Of a stretch of 40,841 nucleotides of DNA, positions 3,720-40,841 are shown one piece after another (the first letter of the stretch is position 1; every line of letters starts with the position of its first letter). The notes beneath the pieces are model-generated. The model did no database searches and was not told the DNA's origin. It saw only the letters and a list, made by a program, of their open reading frames with translations. Source of the stretch: Deltaproteobacteria bacterium. Its GTDB lineage: Bacteria > Desulfobacterota > Binatia > UTPRO1. The translations under genes and the position numbers were made by a program. The stretch covers positions 1 through 40,841 of the forward strand of contig JADLHM010000100.1 in the NCBI GenBank assembly GCA_020848745.1, in the 5' to 3' direction.

Positions 3720-3768
3720 GGGAGCCTCCTCTACGCGGCGCGATCGGACGCCGTCGTGTGGTTCCGTA

Positions 3769-3824
3769 GCCCGCATTTCTCACCAGGTCCACGTCGCAGC
3801 AGGGACCTGGTGAGGAATGCGGGC
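3769..3824. repeat. Long near-perfect palindrome (22-bp arms, 12-nt loop)
   Basis: Arms 3769-3790 and 3803-3824 are complementary at 21 of 22 positions around a 12-nt loop (ACGTCGCAGCAG). It lies between the divergent dehydrogenase and metallo-hydrolase genes, within 50-110 bp of both starts. There is no flanking T tract on either strand, so an intrinsic terminator is unlikely. The compact palindrome in a short intergenic space resembles REP/RAYT-type or other miniature palindromic elements. A large operator is the alternative. Confidence 0.75.
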
Positions 3825-3843
3825 CAGCGCACGGCGTCCGGGT

Positions 3844-3872
3844 TTGTCAGGTCGGACGGCGCCGGCTATGCG
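3844..3872 (+). promoter_or_regulatory. Predicted promoter of the metallo-hydrolase gene
   Basis: TTGTCA at 3844-3849, a 17-bp spacer, then TATGCG at 3867-3872. The start codon follows after only six bases (3879) and has no Shine-Dalgarno, implying a leaderless or near-leaderless transcript. The -35 is good and the -10 mediocre. Confidence 0.35.
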
Positions 3873-3878
3873 ACCCGC

Positions 3879-4640
3879 ATGTCCGTCCGCTTGTTCGCGC
3901 TCACGTGCGGCTGGCTCACCGGGCCGCGCGCGCTCTTCGTCGAGGGGGGGCAGGGCAGCGTGCGCGTGCCGGTGCCCGTCTTCGTGGTCGAGCATCCGCG
4001 CGGGCTCGTGCTCTTCGACAGCGGCCTGCACCGCGAGCTCCAGGACGATCCGGTCACGCGGCTCGGCGTGGCGGCGTCGCTGTTCACGCCGCACTTCGGC
4101 GCCGGCGACGACGTGGCGGCGCGGCTCGCGGCGGCCGGCCTCGACGTCGGCGCCGTGCGCTGGCTCGTGAACTCGCACCTCCACTTCGACCACGCCGGCG
4201 GCAACGTGGCCGTCCCCAACGCGAGCGTCGTCGTGCAGCGCCGCGAATGGCGGGCGGCGCACGACGAGGCGGGGATCGCCGCCAACAACTACACGCCGGG
4301 CGACTACGACACCGGGCAGCCGCGTCTCGAGGTCGACGGCGAGCACGACCTCTTCGGCGACGGGCGCGTCGTGTGCCTGCCGACGTACGGCCACACGCCA
4401 GGCCATCAGTCGCTGCTCGTGCGGCTCGACGGCGGCGATGTCGTGCTCGCGGCCGACGCCTGCTACTTTCGCGAGACTCTCGAGGAGCTGAAGCTGCCGC
4501 TCGTCGTGCACGACCCCGAAGCGATGCTGGCGTCCTTGCAGCGGCTGCGCGCGCTCGCGGCGGTGGGCACGCGGATCGTCTACGGGCACGATCCCGAGAC
4601 GTGGGCGACGATGCCGCAGGCGCCGCACGCCCTCGACTGA
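3879..4640 (+). CDS. Metallo-beta-lactamase-fold hydrolase, AHL-lactonase-like
   Basis: A 253-residue MBL-fold enzyme with a complete dinuclear zinc set: HLHFDH (His100, His102, Asp104, His105), His172 or His176 in YGHTPGH, Asp193 in AADACY, and His237 in YGHD. Overall layout (N-terminal strand pair, LFDSGLH segment, C-terminal YGHDPETW) matches N-acyl-homoserine lactone lactonases and related N-acyl hydrolases, so ring-opening of a lactone or a related ester is the most likely reaction. No signal peptide, hence cytoplasmic. The chosen ATG lies just after a predicted promoter. The glycosyltransferase follows 14 bp downstream and is probably co-transcribed, though no functional link is obvious. 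Confidence 0.85.
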   Translation: MSVRLFALTCGWLTGPRALFVEGGQGSVRVPVPVFVVEHPRGLVLFDSGLHRELQDDPVTRLGVAASLFTPHFGAGDDVAARLAAAGLDVGAVRWLVNSHLHFDHAGGNVAVPNASVVVQRREWRAAHDEAGIAANNYTPGDYDTGQPRLEVDGEHDLFGDGRVVCLPTYGHTPGHQSLLVRLDGGDVVLAADACYFRETLEELKLPLVVHDPEAMLASLQRLRALAAVGTRIVYGHDPETWATMPQAPHALD

Positions 4641-6448: not shown

Positions 6449-6477
6449 TTGCACGCCCGCCCGCCTTCTCTTAGCTT
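6449..6477 (+). promoter_or_regulatory. Predicted promoter of the flavoprotein gene (leaderless type)
   Basis: TTGCAC at 6449-6454, exactly 17 bp, then TAGCTT at 6472-6477. The GTG start is at 6486, eight bases after the -10, so transcription should begin at or within about two bases of the start codon. No Shine-Dalgarno is present. The -10 hexamer is identical to that before ispF. Confidence 0.5.
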
Positions 6478-6485
6478 CCGCGCCC

Positions 6486-7676
6486 GTGGAGCGCCGGGAC
6501 GTTGTCATCGTCGGAGGGGGACCGGCCGGATCCGCGACGGCGCTCTTCCTCCTGCGTCATGATCCCGCCCTCGCCGGACGGATCCTCCTCCTCGAGAAGG
6601 CGCGCCACCCGCGTCCGAAGGTCTGCGCCGGCGGCCTCATCCCGCACGCGCTCCAGTGTCTCGACGAGCTCGGCGTCGGCCTCAGCGTTCCGCACGTCAT
6701 GGTCGACCGCGCCCGCGTGGAGGCGCCGGCCGATCGCGTCGAGGTCGAAGGGGCGCGTTTCTGCGCGGTGGTCCGCCGGGACGAGCTCGACGCCTCGCTG
6801 CTCGCCGCCGTGCGCGCGCGCGGGGTCGAGGTGCGCGAGGAGGAGAAGGTCGTGGCGCTCGGGCGCGTCGCGGCCGGCGTCGAGGTGGCGACGACGCGCG
6901 CCACGTACGTCGCCCCGATCGTCGTCGGCGCGGACGGCTCCGGAAGCCTGGTGCGGCGCCGCCTCGTCGACGCGTCGGGGCGGCGCGAGGAGGTCGCGCG
7001 CGCGGTCATGGCCGACGTGCCGGTTGGCCCGGGCGCGAGCCGGTGGGACGGCCACGCGCGCGCCCGCTACGACTTCGACTTCCGCGCCGTGCCCCGCGGG
7101 CTCGCCGGGTACGCGTGGGCGTTCCCCTGCCTCATCGACGGCGCGCCGCACGTGAACGCGGGCGTCTACGCGTGGCGGCGGACGCGGATCGATGTGCGGG
7201 CGCTCCTGCGCGAGCTGCAAGCCGAGCTCGGAGGCGCGCCGATCCGGCACCAGGCGGCGCCGATCCGTTGCTACGGCAAGGCGCCGTTCGTGGCGCCGCA
7301 CGTGCTCCTGGTGGGTGATGCGGCGGGCGTCGAGCCGCTCATGGGGGAGGGCATCTCGTTCGCGCTCGAGTACGGCCGGTGGGCGGCGGCGGAGGTCGCG
7401 GCAGCGCTCGGCGCCCGGGACTACGCCTTCGCGGCGTCCGAGGCGCGCTTCCGGCGCGACTGGGTCGGGCGAAAGCTCCACCGGCTCGGGCAGGCGGCGA
7501 CCATGTTCTACGGACCCGGCGCGCGTCTCTGGCTCGGGATCGCGGCCCGCTGGCGGGGAGCCCAGGAGGTCGGGCTCCGCTGGTACAACGGCGTCGAAGG
7601 ATGGGATCGCCGCACCGGATGGGACGCCTTCACTACGGCGGTGCGGTGGTCGATCGCGCACGCCCTCCGCGCCTAA
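6486..7676 (+). CDS. FAD-dependent oxidoreductase, geranylgeranyl-reductase-like
   Basis: A 396-residue PHBH-fold flavoprotein. The N-terminal VVIVGGGPAGSATALFL binds the FAD ADP moiety (GGGPAG at 10-15). The KVCAGGL segment and the second FAD motif GDAAGVEPLMGEGI (from about 277) are typical of geranylgeranyl reductases and archaeal/bacterial isoprenoid or lipid saturases, as well as related halogenase-like enzymes. Likely reaction: reduction of polyprenyl double bonds in a lipid or quinone side chain (family inference). The GTG at 6486 is chosen because the nucleotide-binding strand starts immediately after it and a well-spaced promoter sits just before. Upstream in-frame residues are low-complexity Arg-rich. 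Confidence 0.85.
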   Translation: MERRDVVIVGGGPAGSATALFLLRHDPALAGRILLLEKARHPRPKVCAGGLIPHALQCLDELGVGLSVPHVMVDRARVEAPADRVEVEGARFCAVVRRDELDASLLAAVRARGVEVREEEKVVALGRVAAGVEVATTRATYVAPIVVGADGSGSLVRRRLVDASGRREEVARAVMADVPVGPGASRWDGHARARYDFDFRAVPRGLAGYAWAFPCLIDGAPHVNAGVYAWRRTRIDVRALLRELQAELGGAPIRHQAAPIRCYGKAPFVAPHVLLVGDAAGVEPLMGEGISFALEYGRWAAAEVAAALGARDYAFAASEARFRRDWVGRKLHRLGQAATMFYGPGARLWLGIAARWRGAQEVGLRWYNGVEGWDRRTGWDAFTTAVRWSIAHALRA

Positions 7677-7766: not shown

Positions 7767-8945
7767 ATGCACAAGCCCGTGATCGTCGCCGCCACTCGTA
7801 CGGCCATCGGAACGTTCGGCGGAACCCTCGCCCAGACCCCCGCGCCCGAGCTCGCCGCGATCGTCATCCGCGAGGCGCTGCGCCGCGCCGGAAACGTCCC
7901 GGGCGACCAGGTCGACGAGGTCATCCTCGGGAACGTGCTCGCCGCCGGCCTCGGCTTGAACCCGGCCCGCGTCGCGTACCTGAAGGCGGGCATTCCGAAG
8001 GAGGTTCCGGGGTACACCATCAACAAGGCGTGCGGCTCGGGGCTGAAGGCGGTCGCGCTCGCGGCCCAGTCGGTCGCCTCGGGCGACGCCGAGATCGTCG
8101 TCGCGGGCGGCATGGAGAACATGAGCGCCGCCCCCTACCTCCTCACCAAGGCGCGCACCGGCTACCGCATGGGCCACGACCAGATCATCGACTCGATGAT
8201 CAACGACGGCCTCACCTGTCCGATCACCTTCACCCACATGGGCATCACCGCCGAGAACGTCGCGACCAAGTACGAGATCCCGCGCGCCGAGCAGGACGAG
8301 TTCGCGATCGAGAGCCAGGCGAAGACCGCGGCGGCGATCAAGGGGGGCAAGTTCAAGGAGGAGATCGTCGCGGTCGAGATCCCGGCGAAGAAGGGCGATC
8401 CCATCAAGTTCGAGACCGACGAGCACCCGCGCGAGAGCGCGCCGGACAAGGTCGCGGCGCTGAAGCCCGCGTTCAAGAAGGACGGCTCCGTCACGGCGGC
8501 GAGCGCCTCGGGCATCAACGACGGCGCGGCGGCGGTCGTGGTCATGTCGGAGGAGCGCGCGAAGAAGCTCGGCCTTCCCGTCCTCGCGCGCATCCGCGCC
8601 GCCGCAGCGGCGGGCGTCGACCCGGCCATCATGGGCATGGGTCCCTGGCCGGCCTCCGAGAAGGCGCTCAAGAAGGCCGGGCTCCGCAAGGAGGAGATCG
8701 ACCTCTGGGAGCTGAACGAGGCCTTCGCCGCGCAGTCGCTCGGCGTGCTCCGCGAGCTCCGCATTCCGAAGAACCGCGTCAACGTGAACGGCGGCGCGAT
8801 CGCCCTCGGTCACCCGATCGGCGCGAGCGGCGCCCGCATCCTCGTCACCCTGATCCACGCCATGAAGGACCGCGACGCGAAGCTCGGCCTCGCGTCGCTC
8901 TGCATCGGCGGCGGGCAGGGCATCGCGATGATCATCGAGCGCTGA
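7767..8945 (+). CDS. Acetyl-CoA C-acetyltransferase (thiolase)
   Basis: A 392-residue type II thiolase, full family length. It condenses two acetyl-CoA or cleaves acetoacetyl/3-ketoacyl-CoA. Catalytic residues are visible: nucleophile Cys89 ([12 protein letters not shown]), His349 in [14 protein letters not shown], and Cys379 in LCIGGGQG. The N-terminal [13 protein letters not shown] and the [15 protein letters not shown] segment are standard for the biosynthetic/degradative AtoB-PhaA-ThlA group. Shine-Dalgarno at 7754. Fits acyl-CoA metabolism together with the mutase, ligase and dehydrogenase genes in the window, though they are not adjacent. Chain-length preference cannot be read from sequence. 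Confidence 0.96.
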
Positions 8946-12886: not shown

Positions 12887-14310
12887 GAGCCGCCGCGCGG
12901 GACGGGGATGCCGAGCGCGGTCAGCTTCTTCCGGAGCGTGTTCCGGTTGATGCCGAGGAGGTCCGCCGCGCGCAGCTGGTTGCCGCCGGTCTGCTCGAGC
13001 ACGAGCTCGATGAGGGGTCGTTCGACCGCCGCGACCACGGCGGCGTGCAGGTCCTTGCCGGGACGACTCGGGTCGTTCACCAGGGCGGCGACGGCGCTGC
13101 GCAGAGTCTCGGCGAGGGAGCCGGCGAGCGCGGGCGGGGGCGCCGCCTCGGGGAGCTGCAGGTCGGCCTCGGTCAGCGTCTGTCCCGGCGCCAGCACGGC
13201 GGCGCGCACGAGCGTGTTCTCGAGCTCCCGGACGTTCCCCTGCCAGGGATGGCGGACGAGCAGCGCCTCGGCCTCCGGCGTGATGCCGCTGATATCGGTG
13301 CCCATCTCCGCGTTGGTCTTCGCGAGGAAGTGGCGGATGAGCTGCGGGATGTCGCCGCGGCGCTCGCGGAGCGGCGGCACCGCGATCGGGACGACCTTCA
13401 GGCGGAAATAGAGGTCCTCGCGAAAGCGTCCCTCGCGGACGGCGCGCTCGAGCCCTTGGTTGGTCGCGGCGATGATGCGAGCGTCGGCCTTGATGACGGC
13501 CGCGCCGCCGACCCGGCTGAACTCCTTCTCCTGGAGCACGCGCAGGAGCTTCACCTGCAGCTCGATCGGCATGTCGCCGATCTCGTCGAGGAAGAGGGTG
13601 CCGCCGGCGGCGGTCTCGAAGCGGCCGATCCGGCGCTCGTTGGCCCCCGTGAAGGCGCCGCGCTCGTGGCCGAAGATCTCGCTCTCGAGGAGGTCGCGCG
13701 GGATCGCCGAGCAGTTGAGCGCCACGAACGGTCCGCTCCAGCGCGGCGAGTGCGCGTGGATGGCGCGCGCGATCAGCTCCTTGCCGGTGCCGCTCTCGCC
13801 TTCGATGAGGACCGTCGCGTCGCTGTTCGCGAGCCGGCCGATCGTCTTGAAGATCTCCTGCATCGCGGGGCTCGTGCCGATCAGGGTGACGCCGGGCTCG
13901 TAGCGGCCGGCGACCTCGGTGCGGATGCGGCCGACGGTGTCCTTGAGCTTGTGCATCTCGGAGGCGCGCATGACGAGCGTCCGCGCCTCGTCGAGATCGA
14001 AGGGCTTGGTGAGGTAGTTGAAGGCGCCGCGCTTCATCGCCTCGATCGCGTTCGCCATCGTATTCTGCGCGGTGATGACGATCACGATCACGGGTGTCCC
14101 GACCTCGCGGACGCGTTGCAGCACGTCGAGCCCGCTCATGTGCGGCATGCGGACGTCGAGGATGGCGACGTCGAACGCGCCGCCGATCAGCCGCGCGAGC
14201 GCCTCGTCGCCCGTGCTCGCCACCTCCACCTCGTGGCCCGCCTGCGTGAGCGCGGTCGAGAGGACGAGGCGAATCGACTCTTCGTCGTCCGCGATCAGGA
14301 CCCGCGCCAT
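12883..14310 (-). CDS. Sigma-54-dependent response regulator, NtrC family
   Basis: A 475-residue, three-domain activator. The receiver (1-120) carries Asp8-Asp9 and phosphoacceptor Asp52 (LDVRMP). The AAA+ domain has Walker A GESGTGKE (171-178), the sigma-54 contact loop GAFTGA (218-223), Walker B GGTLFLDEIGD (236-246) and the arginine-finger segment FREDLYFRLKVVPI. The C-terminal Fis-type helix-turn-helix is NQLRAADLLGINRNTLRKKL. It activates promoters read by RNA polymerase with sigma-54 after phosphorylation by its kinase. Its ATG shares one base with the TGA of the upstream kinase gene (TGATG), the usual ntrBC coupling. It closely follows the NtrC layout, so nitrogen control is the best guess. 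Confidence 0.93.
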   Translation of the reverse strand: MARVLIADDEESIRLVLSTALTQAGHEVEVASTGDEALARLIGGAFDVAILDVRMPHMSGLDVLQRVREVGTPVIVIVITAQNTMANAIEAMKRGAFNYLTKPFDLDEARTLVMRASEMHKLKDTVGRIRTEVAGRYEPGVTLIGTSPAMQEIFKTIGRLANSDATVLIEGESGTGKELIARAIHAHSPRWSGPFVALNCSAIPRDLLESEIFGHERGAFTGANERRIGRFETAAGGTLFLDEIGDMPIELQVKLLRVLQEKEFSRVGGAAVIKADARIIAATNQGLERAVREGRFREDLYFRLKVVPIAVPPLRERRGDIPQLIRHFLAKTNAEMGTDISGITPEAEALLVRHPWQGNVRELENTLVRAAVLAPGQTLTEADLQLPEAAPPPALAGSLAETLRSAVAALVNDPSRPGKDLHAAVVAAVERPLIELVLEQTGGNQLRAADLLGINRNTLRKKLTALGIPVPRGGS

Positions 14311-15470
14311 CAGCTCGACTCCCCGGGCATCGCGACCGGGAGGCTCACGCGAAAGCGCGTCCAGCGCCCGGGCTCGCTCTCGACGCGCAAGAGGCCGCCG
14401 TGCTGCGCCACCAGGCGGTCACTCACGGCGAGTCCGAGGCCGGTGCCTTTGTTCTTGGTGGTGAAGAACGGCGTGAAGATGCGTTCATGGTCTTCGGGCT
14501 CGATGCCCGGCCCGCTGTCCTCGACCTCGACCGAGAGGTACTGACGGCTCCGGCCCTGACCAGCGGTGCGGACGTGGAAGTCCGTCTCCATGCGGGTGGT
14601 GATCGTGAGCGTCCCCCGGCGTTCCATCGCTTCGAGCGCGTTCTTGACGAGGTTCAGGAACACCTGGCGGATCCGCGCCTCGTCGGCCCAGACGTCCGGC
14701 AAGCTCGGGTCGAAGTTCAAGCGGACGGTGAGCTTGTTGGCGGCGGCGGCGCGCTCGAGGGTCAGCACTTCCTGCAACAGGCGGTGGATGTTGACCGCGC
14801 CGAGCCGGAGCCGAGGCGGCCGGGTGAGCTCGAGGAGCTGCTCGAGCAGGTTCGAGACCCGATCGACCTCGCGCGTGATGAGCGAGGTGAAGCGCAGTCC
14901 CTCGGGATCCGCCTTCAGCGTGTCCGCGAGGAGCTGGGCCGCACCCTTGATGCCGCCGAGCGGGTTCTTGATCTCGTGGGCCAGACCCGCGGCGACCGCC
15001 GCGAGCTCGCCGACCCGGCTGCCGCGCTCGCCGGTGTCCGTGAGCGCGCGCGTCGCGACGACGTCGTGGAGGACCAGCATGCTCCCGACGGTCATGCCTT
15101 CGCTGTCGATCACCGGAGACGCCGTGAGGCGCACCGTCGCGCGCCGTCCGAACGGCGCGGCGAGCTCGCCGCTGTCGGCGACGCGCCGGCCCTCACCGTG
15201 GAGGAACGCCGTGATCCGTTCCGCGAGCCAGTGGTGGCCGGCGAACATCTGGATCGCCGGCTTGCCGCCCGCGTGCTTTGCCGAGACCGCGGTCAGGTCT
15301 TCGGCGCCGGGGCTCATGAAGACGACGCGCCCGGCGGTGTCGAGAAGGATCAGGCCGTCGCCGAGACTCGCGAGGACGTCTTCGGCGTACTTGTTCAGGA
15401 ACTGTTCGGCGGGGGCCGCGGCGGTTTGGGGGTCGAGGTCGACCACGCGGTGGCGCGCTGGATCGCTCAT
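14310..15470 (-). CDS. NtrB-type sensor histidine kinase
   Basis: A 386-residue cytoplasmic kinase with no membrane segment, as in NtrB/GlnL. A PAS domain (about 28-140) is followed by the HisKA H-box GLAHEIKNPLGG with phospho-acceptor His165, N-box NLVKNALEAM (Asn273 and Asn277), the DSGPGI G1 box and FTPFFTTKNKGTGLGLA (F and G2 boxes). It phosphorylates the adjacent NtrC-type regulator, overlapping it by one base. The frame extends to 15536, but the ATG at 15470 (MSDPARHRVV) gives the normal length and leaves a 96-bp divergent promoter space to ispF. Known NtrB proteins are controlled by PII; no glnB is in this window. Confidence 0.92.
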   Translation of the reverse strand: MSDPARHRVVDLDPQTAAAPAEQFLNKYAEDVLASLGDGLILLDTAGRVVFMSPGAEDLTAVSAKHAGGKPAIQMFAGHHWLAERITAFLHGEGRRVADSGELAAPFGRRATVRLTASPVIDSEGMTVGSMLVLHDVVATRALTDTGERGSRVGELAAVAAGLAHEIKNPLGGIKGAAQLLADTLKADPEGLRFTSLITREVDRVSNLLEQLLELTRPPRLRLGAVNIHRLLQEVLTLERAAAANKLTVRLNFDPSLPDVWADEARIRQVFLNLVKNALEAMERRGTLTITTRMETDFHVRTAGQGRSRQYLSVEVEDSGPGIEPEDHERIFTPFFTTKNKGTGLGLAVSDRLVAQHGGLLRVESEPGRWTRFRVSLPVAMPGESS

Positions 15471-15529: not shown

Positions 15530-15558
15530 TTGACACCCGTTCCGACGGCTCCTAGCTT
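15530..15558 (+). promoter_or_regulatory. Predicted ispF promoter (leaderless type)
   Basis: Perfect TTGACA at 15530-15535, 17-bp spacer, TAGCTT at 15553-15558. The GTG start is at 15567, eight bases after the -10, so the mRNA should start at or very near the initiation codon. No Shine-Dalgarno. The geometry is the same as at 6449-6488. Confidence 0.6.
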
Positions 15559-15566
15559 CGCGCTCC

Positions 15567-16049
15567 GTGTCGGCGTTTCGGATCGGGCAGGGCTACGACA
15601 TCCATCCCCTCGCGAGCGGCCGTCGCCTCGTACTCGGCGGGGTCGAGATCCCGCACGATCGCGGCCTTGCGGGGCATTCGGACGCGGATGCGGTCCTCCA
15701 TGCGGTGACGGACGCGCTGCTCGGCGCGCTCGGCGCGGGGGACATCGGGCGGCACTTCTCCGATCGCGATCCGCGCCACCGGGATCGGCCGAGCCGCGAG
15801 TTCGTCGCCGAGACGATGGCGATGGTGCGCGCCCGGGGGTGGCGCGTCGCGAACGTCGACGTGACGGTGCACGCGGAGGCGCCGAAGCTCGCGCCATACC
15901 TCGACGCCATGCGGACGATCCTCGCCGAGCTTCTCGGCGTCGCGTCCGACGCCGCCAACGTGAAGGCGACGCGCGGCGAGGGGCTCGGCGCGATCGGCCG
16001 CGCCGAGGGGATCGCGGCGCAGGCGGCGGTCCTGCTCGAGAGAGCGTGA
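15567..16049 (+). CDS. ispF: 2-C-methyl-D-erythritol 2,4-cyclodiphosphate synthase
   Basis: A 160-residue enzyme of the non-mevalonate isoprenoid pathway, converting CDP-methylerythritol 2-phosphate into the cyclic diphosphate with loss of CMP. Zinc ligands Asp11, His13 (GYDIHPL) and His45 (HSDADAVLH) are in place; [15 protein letters not shown] and the C-terminal [22 protein letters not shown] bind substrate and CMP. Full length. ispD, often fused or adjacent, is not here. The isoprenoid made could feed the geranylgeranyl-reductase-like enzyme at 6486, a loose link only. Confidence 0.97.
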
Positions 16050-17957: not shown

Positions 17958-20900
17958 ATGAGCGAGAAGCGATCCTGGAAGCCGGACCATACGTCCTTCG
18001 GCCGGGCTCTGGTCGTCATGGTCGTTCCGTTGATGCTGGCGCTGGCACCGTCAGGCGCCGCAGCGGACGTTCCAGCACCCCCGGACGACGATCGAGTCGA
18101 ACGCATCGACGCTGGCCCTCCCCGACCGCGCGCTGCTTTACCGGCGCCGCCGCTCGCGGCGCTTCCCGTGACCGGCGCCGGCTGGACGGCGCAAGGTCCG
18201 GGACCGACGACGGGCGGCCAGGTGGAGGGCAGCACGATCCAGAACGGTGAGGTCGTGGGCGCCGTCCACGCGGTCGTGACCCATCCGACCGACGCCGACA
18301 CGATCTGGATCGGCGCGGTAAACGGCGGCTTGTGGCGAACGACCAACGCGACCGCGGCGAGCCCGGCGTGGACTCCGCTCATCGACGATTTCCCGTCGCT
18401 TTCGATCGGTGCCTTGGAGCTCGACCCGACCGACGCGGCCAATCGGACGCTGGTCGCCGGGATCGGTCGCTACAGCTCGTTCGGTAGTACGGGCGGCGCG
18501 CTGAGAGGCATCCTGCGAACGACGGATGGCGGCGCCACGTGGACGGAGCTCGGGGCCGTCGATCTCGCGGGGCGCAACGTGAGCGGCGTCGGTCCGCGCG
18601 GTGCCACGATCCTCGTCGCGGCGAGCAGTCGCGGATCCATCGGTGCCGGCATGTACCGCAGCACCGACACCGGCGCGTCCTTCCAAAACATCTCGGGGCT
18701 GAACGGCCTCGATTTCGGTGAGGTCTTCGATCTCGTCGGCGACCCGTCCGATCCCAACCGCTTCTACGCGGGGCTTCCCACCGGCGTGTTCCGCACCGAC
18801 GACGCCGGGGTGAACTGGATCGACGTGACCGACGCCGCGATCGGGGCGCTGGTGAGTGCCGCGACCAACAACATCGAGTTCGCCGTGAGCCCGGTCGCGC
18901 CAAATCCAGTCTACGCCGGCATCGTGAACAACGGACAGCTCCGCGGATTCTTCCGATCCGGGGACCAAGGTGCCACCTGGACGGCCATGGACCTGCCGCA
19001 GGTCGTGGCGGGCGCGTTCGCGATCACGAACGCGACCAACGCGACGCCGATCGTCATCACCTCGAACAACCACGGGCTCACCAACAACGAGCAGCCGCAG
19101 GTCCGTATCAGCGGAGTCACCGGCAACACGGCGGCGAACGGCGACTTCTTCGTGACCGTCATCGACAACAACAACTTCTCGCTGAACGGCAGCGCCAGCA
19201 ACGGGGCTTACGGGGGCGGCGGCACGTGGGGGAAGATCACCGGTCTCGAGCCGCGCTTCGAGCCAGGCTCGCAAGGTGCGACGCACTTCTCGATCGTCGC
19301 CGACCCCGGCGCCGTGAATCTCGTCTACGTGGGCGGCGATCGGCAAGACTTTCCGAACCCGCTCGGGGCAGCGACCTTCAGCGGGCGCCTGTTCCGCGGG
19401 GATTTCGCGATCGCACCCGGGGGGCCGGGCACCATTCCGTCGCCGCAGTGGACGTCGCTGACCCACGTCGGTACGGGCGCGAACTCGGCGCCGCACGCCG
19501 ATTCCCGTGAGATGCGCTTCGATGCGAACGGGGACATCATCGAAGGTGACGATGGCGGCATCTATCGCCGGACCGATCCGGGACTCACCACCGGTGATTG
19601 GGCGTCGGTGATCGGCGACCTGCAAGTCACCGAGTTCCACGACATCGCCTACGACACCAACTCGAACATCATCATCGGCGGCGCTCAGGATACCGGCACG
19701 CCCGAGCAGACCGCGACGGGGAGCACCACCTGGCGCAGCGTCTCGACCGCAGACGGCGGCGACGTCGCCGTCGACGACACGAGCGTCGCCGGTCAGTCGA
19801 TGCGCTATTCGAGCACGCAGAATCTCGGCGGTTTCCGGCGGCGCACCTGCGACAACGCCAACAACTGCGGCGGCGCCACGGCCGTCGGCCTCAACGTGAC
19901 GAGCGGATCGGCGCTGCAGCGCCAGTTCGTGACGCCGATCGAGCTGAACGTCGCCGATCAGACCCGTCTCGTCATCGGCGGCGCCAACGGCGTGTACGAA
20001 TCCGCCGACCAGGGCGACAACATCGCCCAGGTCGGCACCACGGGCCCGACGGTGTGCATCGGCGGTGGCAGCGCCGGCAACGCGTGCGGCGTGGACGCCA
20101 ACTGTCCCAATGGCGTGTGCGGCTATCTCGTGAACCGCAACGCGATGGCCTACGGACATCAGAGCAACGCCGACCTGATCTACGTCGGCTCCAATGCGCG
20201 CGTCCTCGTCCGGACGACCGCCGCCGGCACCATGGATCCGACGCCGACCGCGTTTCCCGGCGGCACGGTGCTCGACCTCGTCGTCGCGCCCTCGGATGCC
20301 GATCGCCTCTACGCGATCGACGTCGCTGGCGTCTACGAGACCACCGACGGCGGGACGACCTGGACGGACGTCACGGGCAATCTCAGCGACGACGGGGCGA
20401 CGAACTTCCGGAGTCTCGTGTACATCGAGGGCGCCGGCAACGATCTTCTCGTAGTCGGTACCAGCCAGGGGGTCTTCGTCTCGATCGAGTCGGATTTCGA
20501 TTCCTGGCTCGAGCTCGGCGGCATCCCGAATGCGCTGGTATGGGATCTCGACTACGACGCCACCGACCGGCTCCTCGTGGCCGGTACGCTCGGCCGGGGC
20601 GCCTGGACGCAGCTGATCACGATCGCCGATCTCGCGATCGAGAAGGCCGCCTCGCCCGACCCCGTATCGCCGGGACAGACGCTCACCTACGAGATCACGG
20701 TGACGAACAACGGCCCGGAGGCCGCGGCCGGCGTCATCGTCACCGACCTCCTGCCGCCCGAGGTGAGCTACGTCAGCGACACCGACGCCTGCGTGGAGGG
20801 ACCTCCCGGCACGCTGACGTGCAGCGTCGGCAACATCGCGAGCACGCAGAGCGTCACGTTCGAGATCGAGGTGGAGGTCGATCCGGATCTCGTCCAGCCC

Positions 20901-39517: not shown

Positions 39518-39523
39518 TAGGAT
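39518..39523 (+). promoter_or_regulatory. Candidate -10 box of glnS (leaderless type)
   Basis: TAGGAT nine bases before the ATG at 39533, with TTCGAC at 39494-39499 as a weak -35 (18-bp spacer). No Shine-Dalgarno. Resembles the -10/start geometry at 6472 and 15553. Confidence 0.35.
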
Positions 39524-39532
39524 CCCGCGCCC

Positions 39533-40841
39533 ATGCCAGAGCGCGTCTCCGAGTCCCCGTCGCACTTCATCCGTGAGATCATCGAAGACGATCTCCGCAC
39601 CGGGAAGCACGCGCGCGTCGTCACGCGTTTTCCCCCCGAGCCGAACGGCTACCTGCACATCGGGCACGCCAAGAGCATCTGCCTGAACTTCGGTCTGGCG
39701 CGGCAGTACGGGGGTGTCTGTCATCTGCGCTTCGATGACACCAACCCCGCCAAGGAGGACGTCGAGTACGTCGACTCCATCATGGAGGACGTGCGCTGGC
39801 TCGGCTTCGACTGGGGCGACAAGCTCTTCTACGCCTCCGACTATTTCGACGCGCTCTACGATTTCGCGATGCGGCTCGTGGACGAGGGGAAGGCGTACGT
39901 CGACAGCCTCTCGGCCGACGAAATCCGCGCCCACCGCGGCACCTTCACGGAGCCCGGCCGCAACAGCCCCTACCGCGATCGCAGCGTCGCCGAGAACCGC
40001 GACCTCTTCGCGCGCATGCGGGCGGGCGAGTTTCCCGACGGGGCGCACGTGCTGCGGGCGAAGATCGACATGGCGTCGTCGAACCTCAACCTGCGCGACC
40101 CGACGCTCTACCGGATCCGCCGGATCGCGCATCACCGCACCGGCGACCGTTGGTGCATCTATCCGCTCTACGACTTCACGCACTGCCTCTCCGACATGCT
40201 GGAGCGGATCACGCACTCGATCTGCACGCTTGAGTTCGAGAACCACCGTCCGCTCTACGACTGGGTGCTCGACGAGCTCGCGACGCCGTGCCACCCGCAG
40301 CAGATCGAGTTCGCGCGCTTGAACCTGAGCTACACGGTGATGAGCAAGCGGAAGCTGCTCGCGCTCGTGCAGGGGGGCCACGTGCGCGGCTGGGACGACC
40401 CCCGCATGCCGACCATCGCGGGCTTCCGGCGCCGCGGCTACACGCCGGAGGCCGTCCGTGACTTCTGCGAGAGCGTCGGCGTCGCCAAGCGCGACGGTAC
40501 GGTCGACGTCGCGCAGCTCGAGCACGCCATCCGCGAGGATCTGAACAAGCGGGCAGCGCGGGTCATGGCGGTGCTGCGGCCGCTGAAGGTCGTGATCGAG
40601 AACTATCCGGAGGATCGGGTCGAGGAGATGGAGGCGGTGAACAACCCGGAGGATTTCGCCGCCGGGACGCGCCCGCTGCCGTTCGGCCGCGAGCTCTTCA
40701 TCGAGCGGGACGACTTCATGGAGGAGCCGCCGAGCAAGTTCTTCCGGCTGGCGCCCGGGCGCGAGGTGCGCCTGCGCTACGCCTACATCATCAAGTGCGA
40801 GCGCGTGGTGAAGGACGCGAGCGGCGCCGTCGTCGAGCTGC
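39533..40841 (+). CDS. glnS: Glutaminyl-tRNA synthetase (3' end outside window)
   Basis: 436 residues visible of a class I aminoacyl-tRNA synthetase charging tRNA-Gln. Catalytic core: [17 protein letters not shown] with the HIGH motif (42-45), [16 protein letters not shown] (characteristic of GlnRS/eukaryotic-type GluRS), [37 protein letters not shown], and VMSKRK as the KMSKS signature. The DDTNP and YDF/THS forms identify GlnRS rather than bacterial GluRS. The frame is intact to the right edge inside the anticodon-binding beta-barrel region. No Shine-Dalgarno; a TAGGAT box lies nine bases upstream. Presence of GlnRS means tRNA-Gln can be charged directly. Confidence 0.95.

Follow-up and report, generated by a model that had tools for sequence, protein, structure and literature searches.

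Judging from its sequence, the genome examined here, which belongs to a lineage that is probably the order UTPRO1 of the Binatota, very probably places sigma-70 promoters directly against the start codons of about a tenth of its non-operonic genes, ispF among them, and would thereby produce leaderless or nearly leaderless mRNAs. The window, a stretch of 40,841 nucleotides, is contig C100 of this 4.88-Mb genome, which is held in 155 contigs (G000). In genes of this class a promoter abutting the start codon would replace the Shine-Dalgarno (SD) leader, and the SD-less mRNA would be translated as leaderless messages are, by 70S ribosomes binding to a start codon at the 5′ end (PMC9031893). We infer both the start of transcription at these codons and the 70S initiation. 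The first-pass annotation had arrived at leaderless mRNAs from four sites in the window, and the reading of promoters abutting start codons gained support from the placement of a TTG at N17 from the −10 box, from the exclusion of SD motifs and from the near-restriction to non-operonic starts. It was further supported by the behaviour of decoy ORF starts, by the conservation of the ispF promoter in six genomes and by a class-wide count that made no use of annotation.

Probable start-abutting promoters in the window

Direct reading of the window sequence bore out the positions and spacings of all four annotated sites. The gene ispF (PF02542) begins with a GTG and occupies 15567..16049 on the + strand. 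It is preceded by a putative housekeeping promoter of the sigma-70 type, TTGACA-N17-TAGCTT, whose −35 element (15530..15535, +) was recognised by reading of the sequence and whose −10 element (15553..15558, +) ends 8 nt before the GTG. The neighbouring PAS/HisKA/HATPase kinase gene (14310..15470, −; gene call and Pfam) is divergent from ispF; as it starts at 15470 and leaves 96 bp, a separate ispF promoter has to lie in those 96 bp or inside the kinase gene. A FAD-binding_3 flavoprotein gene (Pfam; GTG start, 6486..7676, +) shows the same layout, with TTGCAC (6449..6454, +) located N17 from TAGCTT (6472..6477, +), which again ends 8 nt before the GTG at 6486. Its orthologue in a genome of the same family (G003) carries TAGCGT 11 nt before its ATG.

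The third site belongs to a metallo-beta-lactamase-fold hydrolase (PF00753; ATG start, 3879..4640, +), with TATGCG (3867..3872, +) ending 6 nt before the ATG at 3879. A TTGTCA (3844..3849, +) exactly N17 from this box had been missed in the first reading, and brings to three of the four (ispF, flavoprotein and metallo-hydrolase) the sites with a −35 element at exactly N17. The fourth gene, coding for a class I tRNA synthetase of the Glu/Gln type (glnS-type; PF00749, PF03950; 39533..40841, +, running off the window), is preceded by a −10-like TAGGAT (39518..39523, +) 9 nt before its ATG at 39533, with a weak −35 candidate, TTCGAC at N18. No SD motif (GGAG, GAGG or AGGA, 4–12 nt before the start) was found at any of the four sites, and GGAG-type SD motifs are present at 7767, 17958, 28624 (−) and 36744 (−); both observations agree with the earlier annotation.

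Because the −10 element of ispF ends 8 nt before the GTG, RNA polymerase should start at, or within 1–2 nt of, position 15567, and the 5′ end of the ispF mRNA is predicted to coincide with that position or to lie no more than about 2 nt from it, which would render the transcript leaderless. Where 6 nt separate a −10 hexamer from the start codon, the usual sigma-70 start falls on the first base of the codon, and a distance of 7–9 nt calls for a small downstream shift or for a leader of up to about 3 bases. Two observations count against the reading of these sites as leaderless promoters: the 8–9 nt distances permit a leader of 1–3 nt, and glnS has no good −35 element.

Enrichment of the TA box and its −35 partner

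Genes were called in a sample of 694,388 bases, which contained the window and made up 14% of the genome, with a caller that relies on coding score and start-codon preference alone and makes no use of upstream motifs. Some of its starts are surely wrong, as at 18168, which was given rather than 17958 or 17931. The 553 genes obtained included 533 with usable context, the 20 others lacking either 100 nt upstream or a neighbour. Their starts were divided into 351 non-operonic ones (divergent, or with a gap of at least 30 nt to a co-directional gene before them) and 182 operonic ones, and were taken as SD-led where GGAG, GAGG or AGGA ended 4–12 nt before the start. On this definition 32% of the non-operonic starts are SD-led, against 9% after shuffling. 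No 16S rRNA gene from which to read the anti-SD was found in this genome, so SD use is judged from motif enrichment. Backgrounds were obtained from 100 dinucleotide shuffles, and the TA box was scored as a TA ending 9–14 nt upstream of the start, equivalent to the TA of a hexamer ending 5–10 nt upstream.

A TA was present in this interval at 61 of the 238 SD-less non-operonic starts, compared with 22.2 ± 3.5 in shuffled sequence, and at 14 of the 113 SD-led non-operonic starts, compared with 11.4. At the SD-less starts there was no excess further upstream, with 11 against 21.3 at 20–25 nt and 16 against 21.8 at 40–45 nt. At the same place AA, TT and the reversed motif ANNNTA were flat, and AT was mildly high (60/238 vs 43.8 shuffled). 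SD-less operonic starts displayed a smaller excess (14/104 vs 5.9 shuffled), and among 8,956 in-frame ATG/GTG codons inside genes, used as decoys, 4.9% had a TA there. The TA-box excess amounts to about 11% of non-operonic starts, which is probably a floor as miscalled starts dilute it. The remaining 177 of the 238 SD-less starts are without a TA box, and at these initiation is unexplained or the start is miscalled. Start-abutting genes are a minority class in this genome, SD leads being commoner.

The annotation had described the box as TAGNNT at a fixed distance from the start codon. Enrichment of this hexamer at the claimed distance was confirmed against shuffled sequence: TAGNNT lay 6–10 nt before 8 of the 238 SD-less non-operonic starts (0.7 shuffled; highest of 100 shuffles, 4), before none of the 113 SD-led starts and before 0.0% (rounded) of the 8,956 internal decoys. 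As a definition of the class it proved too narrow, since it captures only those 8 starts and only 28 of 68 boxes read TAG; the third base was G in 28, C in 21, T in 12 and A in 7, and the sixth base was T in 44% of the 25 box and −35 pairs described below. The class as a whole is covered by TA(G/C/T)NN(T) together with a TTG at N17. Proximity of the box to the start likewise held, and the distance is not fixed but ranges over 5–9 nt.

The −35 element had played no part in the choice of boxes and thus provides an independent test of their promoter nature. Upstream of the 68 boxes a TTG occurred 4 times at N16, 17 times at N17 and 6 times at N18, and the remaining 29 spacings (8 to 39) hold 17 TTG in total, about 0.6 each. 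Complete pairs, TTG-N16-18-TANNNN ending 5–9 nt before the start, were found at 25 of the 238 SD-less non-operonic starts and at none of the 113 SD-led ones (Fisher p 6.6e-5), or 25 of all 351 non-operonic starts against 1 of 182 operonic ones. Their distances to the start were 5 nt (1), 6 nt (8), 7 nt (4), 8 nt (8) and 9 nt (4).

These distances bear on a possible, if doubtful, alternative, namely that the mRNAs possess very short leaders of about 1–10 nt, transcription starting slightly upstream of the codon and translation relying on short-leader, SD-independent initiation. Such leaders would suit the observation that pairs at 7–9 nt are as common as those at 6 nt, and that 7 further pairs lie at 10–14 nt. 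RNA polymerase can, on the other hand, move its point of initiation to a purine that follows a pyrimidine, and most of the start codons begin with a purine and most are preceded by C (40/58). SD-led starts share this context (73/113); taking all non-operonic starts of this genome, C immediately precedes the codon in 57% and A or T in 12%, SD-led and SD-less alike.

The ispF start and its putative promoter

Initiation at the called codon is the reading that we prefer, and at ispF the start is set by homology, independently of the motif-free gene caller. The GTG at 15567 is the first ATG, GTG or TTG in its frame and is closely followed by the conserved RIGQGYD. Each of the six family genomes (the window's own, G001 and G002 of the same genus, and G003–G005 of the same family) has TTGAC(A/T)-N17/18-TA box-N7-9-GTG/ATG at ispF, although the flanks have diverged. 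In the alignment of the ispF upstream regions the TTGAC columns are invariant, and the boxes read TAGCTT, TAGCGT, TAGCTT, TAGCGT, TAACCT and TAGCCT. The letters for G002 were taken from locus L002, and the box of G003, which was gapped across in the automatic alignment, was taken from the unaligned sequence. A total of 30 ispF loci had been collected, six from the family; among the nine outside the family in which the start region was located by motif, none had a TTG-N17/18-TA just before the ispF start. The nearest named IspF relatives come from metagenome-assembled genomes (MAGs), namely Deltaproteobacteria SJ588 (92% identical), ‘Polyangiaceae bacterium UTPRO1’ (89%) and NC_groundwater_1023 (78%).

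The promoters could be real and the called starts wrong, the true start codons lying further downstream behind ordinary leaders. The choice of starts by coding score alone, with its evident errors such as 18168, would allow for this, but we regard it as very improbable. At ispF no ATG, GTG or TTG occurs between the GTG and RIGQGYD, and in G003 the box precedes an ATG that is itself directly followed by RIGQGYD; the flavoprotein start, read by eye, lies about 8 residues before its GGGPAG motif. Moreover, pairs at SD-less starts concentrate at 5–9 nt (25), with 7 at 10–14 nt and 0–3 in each later bin, whereas at SD-led genes they are scattered from 10 nt outward without any pile-up near the start. 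A compositional or ORF-geometry artefact, in which the upstream TAG or TAA is merely the stop codon bounding the open frame, as it is in frame for 15 of the 68 boxes, was ruled out by decoy ORFs, given that 2,675 spurious ORFs of the same geometry carried a TA before their leftmost start in 8.6% and a pair in 0.19% (5/2,675), that the excess persisted once boxes forming in-frame stops were removed (48/238 vs 19.2 shuffled), and that stop-codon geometry cannot generate the TTG spacing.

A repeat near the putative metallo-hydrolase promoter

Upstream of the metallo-hydrolase promoter, at 3766-3826 of the window, lies a palindrome with two arms, GGACCTGGTGAGRAATGCGGGC. This site is one among 26 matches in the genome (G000; up to 2 mismatches, 0 matches for the backward control). 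Six arm pairs on other contigs (C23, C56, C98, C109, C116 and C143) are opposed and exactly 156 bp apart, a spacing that suggests a miniature mobile element. The end of one arm copy (G000:C5:2620-2660), GCGGGCTAG, falls shortly before an ATG, and start-abutting promoters may therefore in places owe their −10 box to the repeat.

Distribution across the class

The same pipeline was applied to 120–200 kb from each of ten relatives, contigs under 5 kb being left out in G010 and G045. Counts of TA at SD-less non-operonic starts against shuffled sequence were 24/84 vs 6.8 (G012), 17/49 vs 5.3 (G010), 17/66 vs 6.0 (G011), 13/66 vs 7.2 (G004), 16/81 vs 8.6 (G050), 14/78 vs 8.7 (G002), 11/54 vs 6.9 (G003), 15/82 vs 11.6 (G071), 14/64 vs 11.8 (G021) and 15/66 vs 13.5 (G045). 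The pattern is replicated in G004, G010, G011, G012 and G050. In G002, of the same genus as the window, the TA excess was weak, but 7 pairs were found at 4–8 nt against a background of 0.8, and the whole-genome count described below was 38 to 5. E. coli K-12 taken through this pipeline gave 21/57 vs 19.6 for TA, and among its 110 starts none had a pair at 4–8 nt. The positive control, a D. deserti plasmid, responded modestly (19/78 vs 10.9) and showed no −35 peak.

We also counted TTG-N20-TA-N10-ATG over whole genomes, free of annotation, with the N19 spacing as control and the pattern read backwards as a second control. The window's genome gave 46 against 7, and the six family genomes together 279 against 52, each at p <0.01. 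Over 98 genomes of the class the total was 4,382 against 2,172, with 93 of the 98 above their control and 54 at p <0.01, uncorrected. Ratios were highest in families f6 (6.4), f1 (5.4), f7 (4.6, one genome), f11 (3.8) and f8 (3.4), and lowest in f9 (1.25), f2 (1.36) and f5 (1.39). The backward-read control left f14 (80 vs 95) and f16 (41 vs 58) unsupported and f15 (268 vs 224) and f9 (410 vs 380) barely supported, and because it weakens some families in this way, spread across the class is firm only for f1, f6, f8 and f11. The ‘lineage-wide habit’ of the annotation thus applies to the window's family (6/6) and several others, and is weak or doubtful in f2, f5, f9 and f14–f16. In the low-signal families f2, f5 and f9, the sampled genomes G021 and G045 have a G+C content of 59% and 56%, below that of the positive genomes.

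For the outgroups, E. coli was left out of the pattern controls and 13 of 14 were covered. These 13 records gave 814 against 779 in total (N20 vs N19), most of them near 1, as in Paraburkholderia xenovorans (58 to 63) and Dictyobacter (246 to 259); the exceptions were an Omnitrophota MAG (L070, genome G105; 35 to 13) and Castellaniella denitrificans (16 to 6).

Orthologue concordance in the class genomes sampled was sparse: 128 reciprocal-best pairs yielded 62 non-operonic ones, which comprised 4 TA/TA, 8 TA/none and 2 SD/TA, the rest being 18 SD/SD, 23 none/none and 7 none/SD. A search of 19 genomes located ribosomal protein bS21 in 18, that of the window included, which rules out a dependence on its loss; since the window's genome retains bS21, the feature is independent of losing it. 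The one genome in which bS21 was not found, G010, shows a strong leaderless signal, and its completeness is 99%.

Taken over the whole class, which is probably Binatia, the chances appear about even that start-abutting, probably leaderless genes are ancestral and widespread, with a strong presence in the high-GC families f1, f6, f8 and f11 and near-complete loss in f9, f2 and f5. The order UTPRO1 has been assigned to the phylum Binatota (PMC8262859). Unlike in that assignment, the MAG Polyangiaceae bacterium UTPRO1 (L002, NCBI taxid 1961108) is filed under Myxococcota at NCBI.

Relation to known leaderless systems

Zheng et al. in 2011 defined as leaderless those genes in which a TA-like signal precedes the start by about 12 bp, and reported them in 207 of 953 bacterial genomes; among the delta-Proteobacteria 8 of 33 genomes were positive, on average for 15.8% of their genes (PMC3160421). 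The genes described here resemble their TA-led genes in having a TANNNT-like box at about 12 bp and no SD, and in the degenerate TAnnnT form seen in high-GC genomes (PMC3160421). They differ in coming from a lineage known from environmental assemblies rather than from the 2010 RefSeq genomes of that survey (PMC3160421), and in that a −35 element at N17 is shown statistically here.

In Deinococcus-Thermus the −10 role of start-adjacent boxes has been tested experimentally and complete reference genomes have been scanned (PMC12340547). There too the box lies close to the ORF, at 6–7 bp, and RBS-led and −10-led genes coexist, although the share there is about one third of genes in D. radiodurans (PMC12340547), compared with roughly one non-operonic start in ten in our genome. 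The −35 element is a regular partner of the box here, whereas the D. deserti plasmid sample showed no such peak. Mycobacteria (PMC3898074, PMC4633059) and Streptomyces are likewise high in GC and have −10 boxes abutting start codons; transcript starts have been measured in those organisms and are predicted from sequence here.

The kind of expression is thus already known, and it is apparently the lineage that is unrecorded. Leaderless expression in Binatota was not found in the literature searched, where an entry may be hidden in supplementary tables. The name ‘Binatota’ is absent from the main text of PMC12340547, and PMC10434106 holds both ‘Binatota’ and ‘leaderless’, the latter only in the title of a reference. 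The same searches returned no paper on leaderless genes with GeneMarkS-2 or in metagenome-assembled genomes.

Overall, these results add a little-studied lineage to those in which leaderless expression appears common, and annotators of such genomes will need a start model based on the −10 box in addition to SD models. Since families of a single class differ strongly in this respect, they offer a natural series for dating the gain or loss of leaderless genes and for examining the role of G+C content. Were leaderless expression confirmed as ancestral and widespread, the class would join the Actinobacteria and Deinococcota as a lineage in which its gain and loss may be followed family by family.
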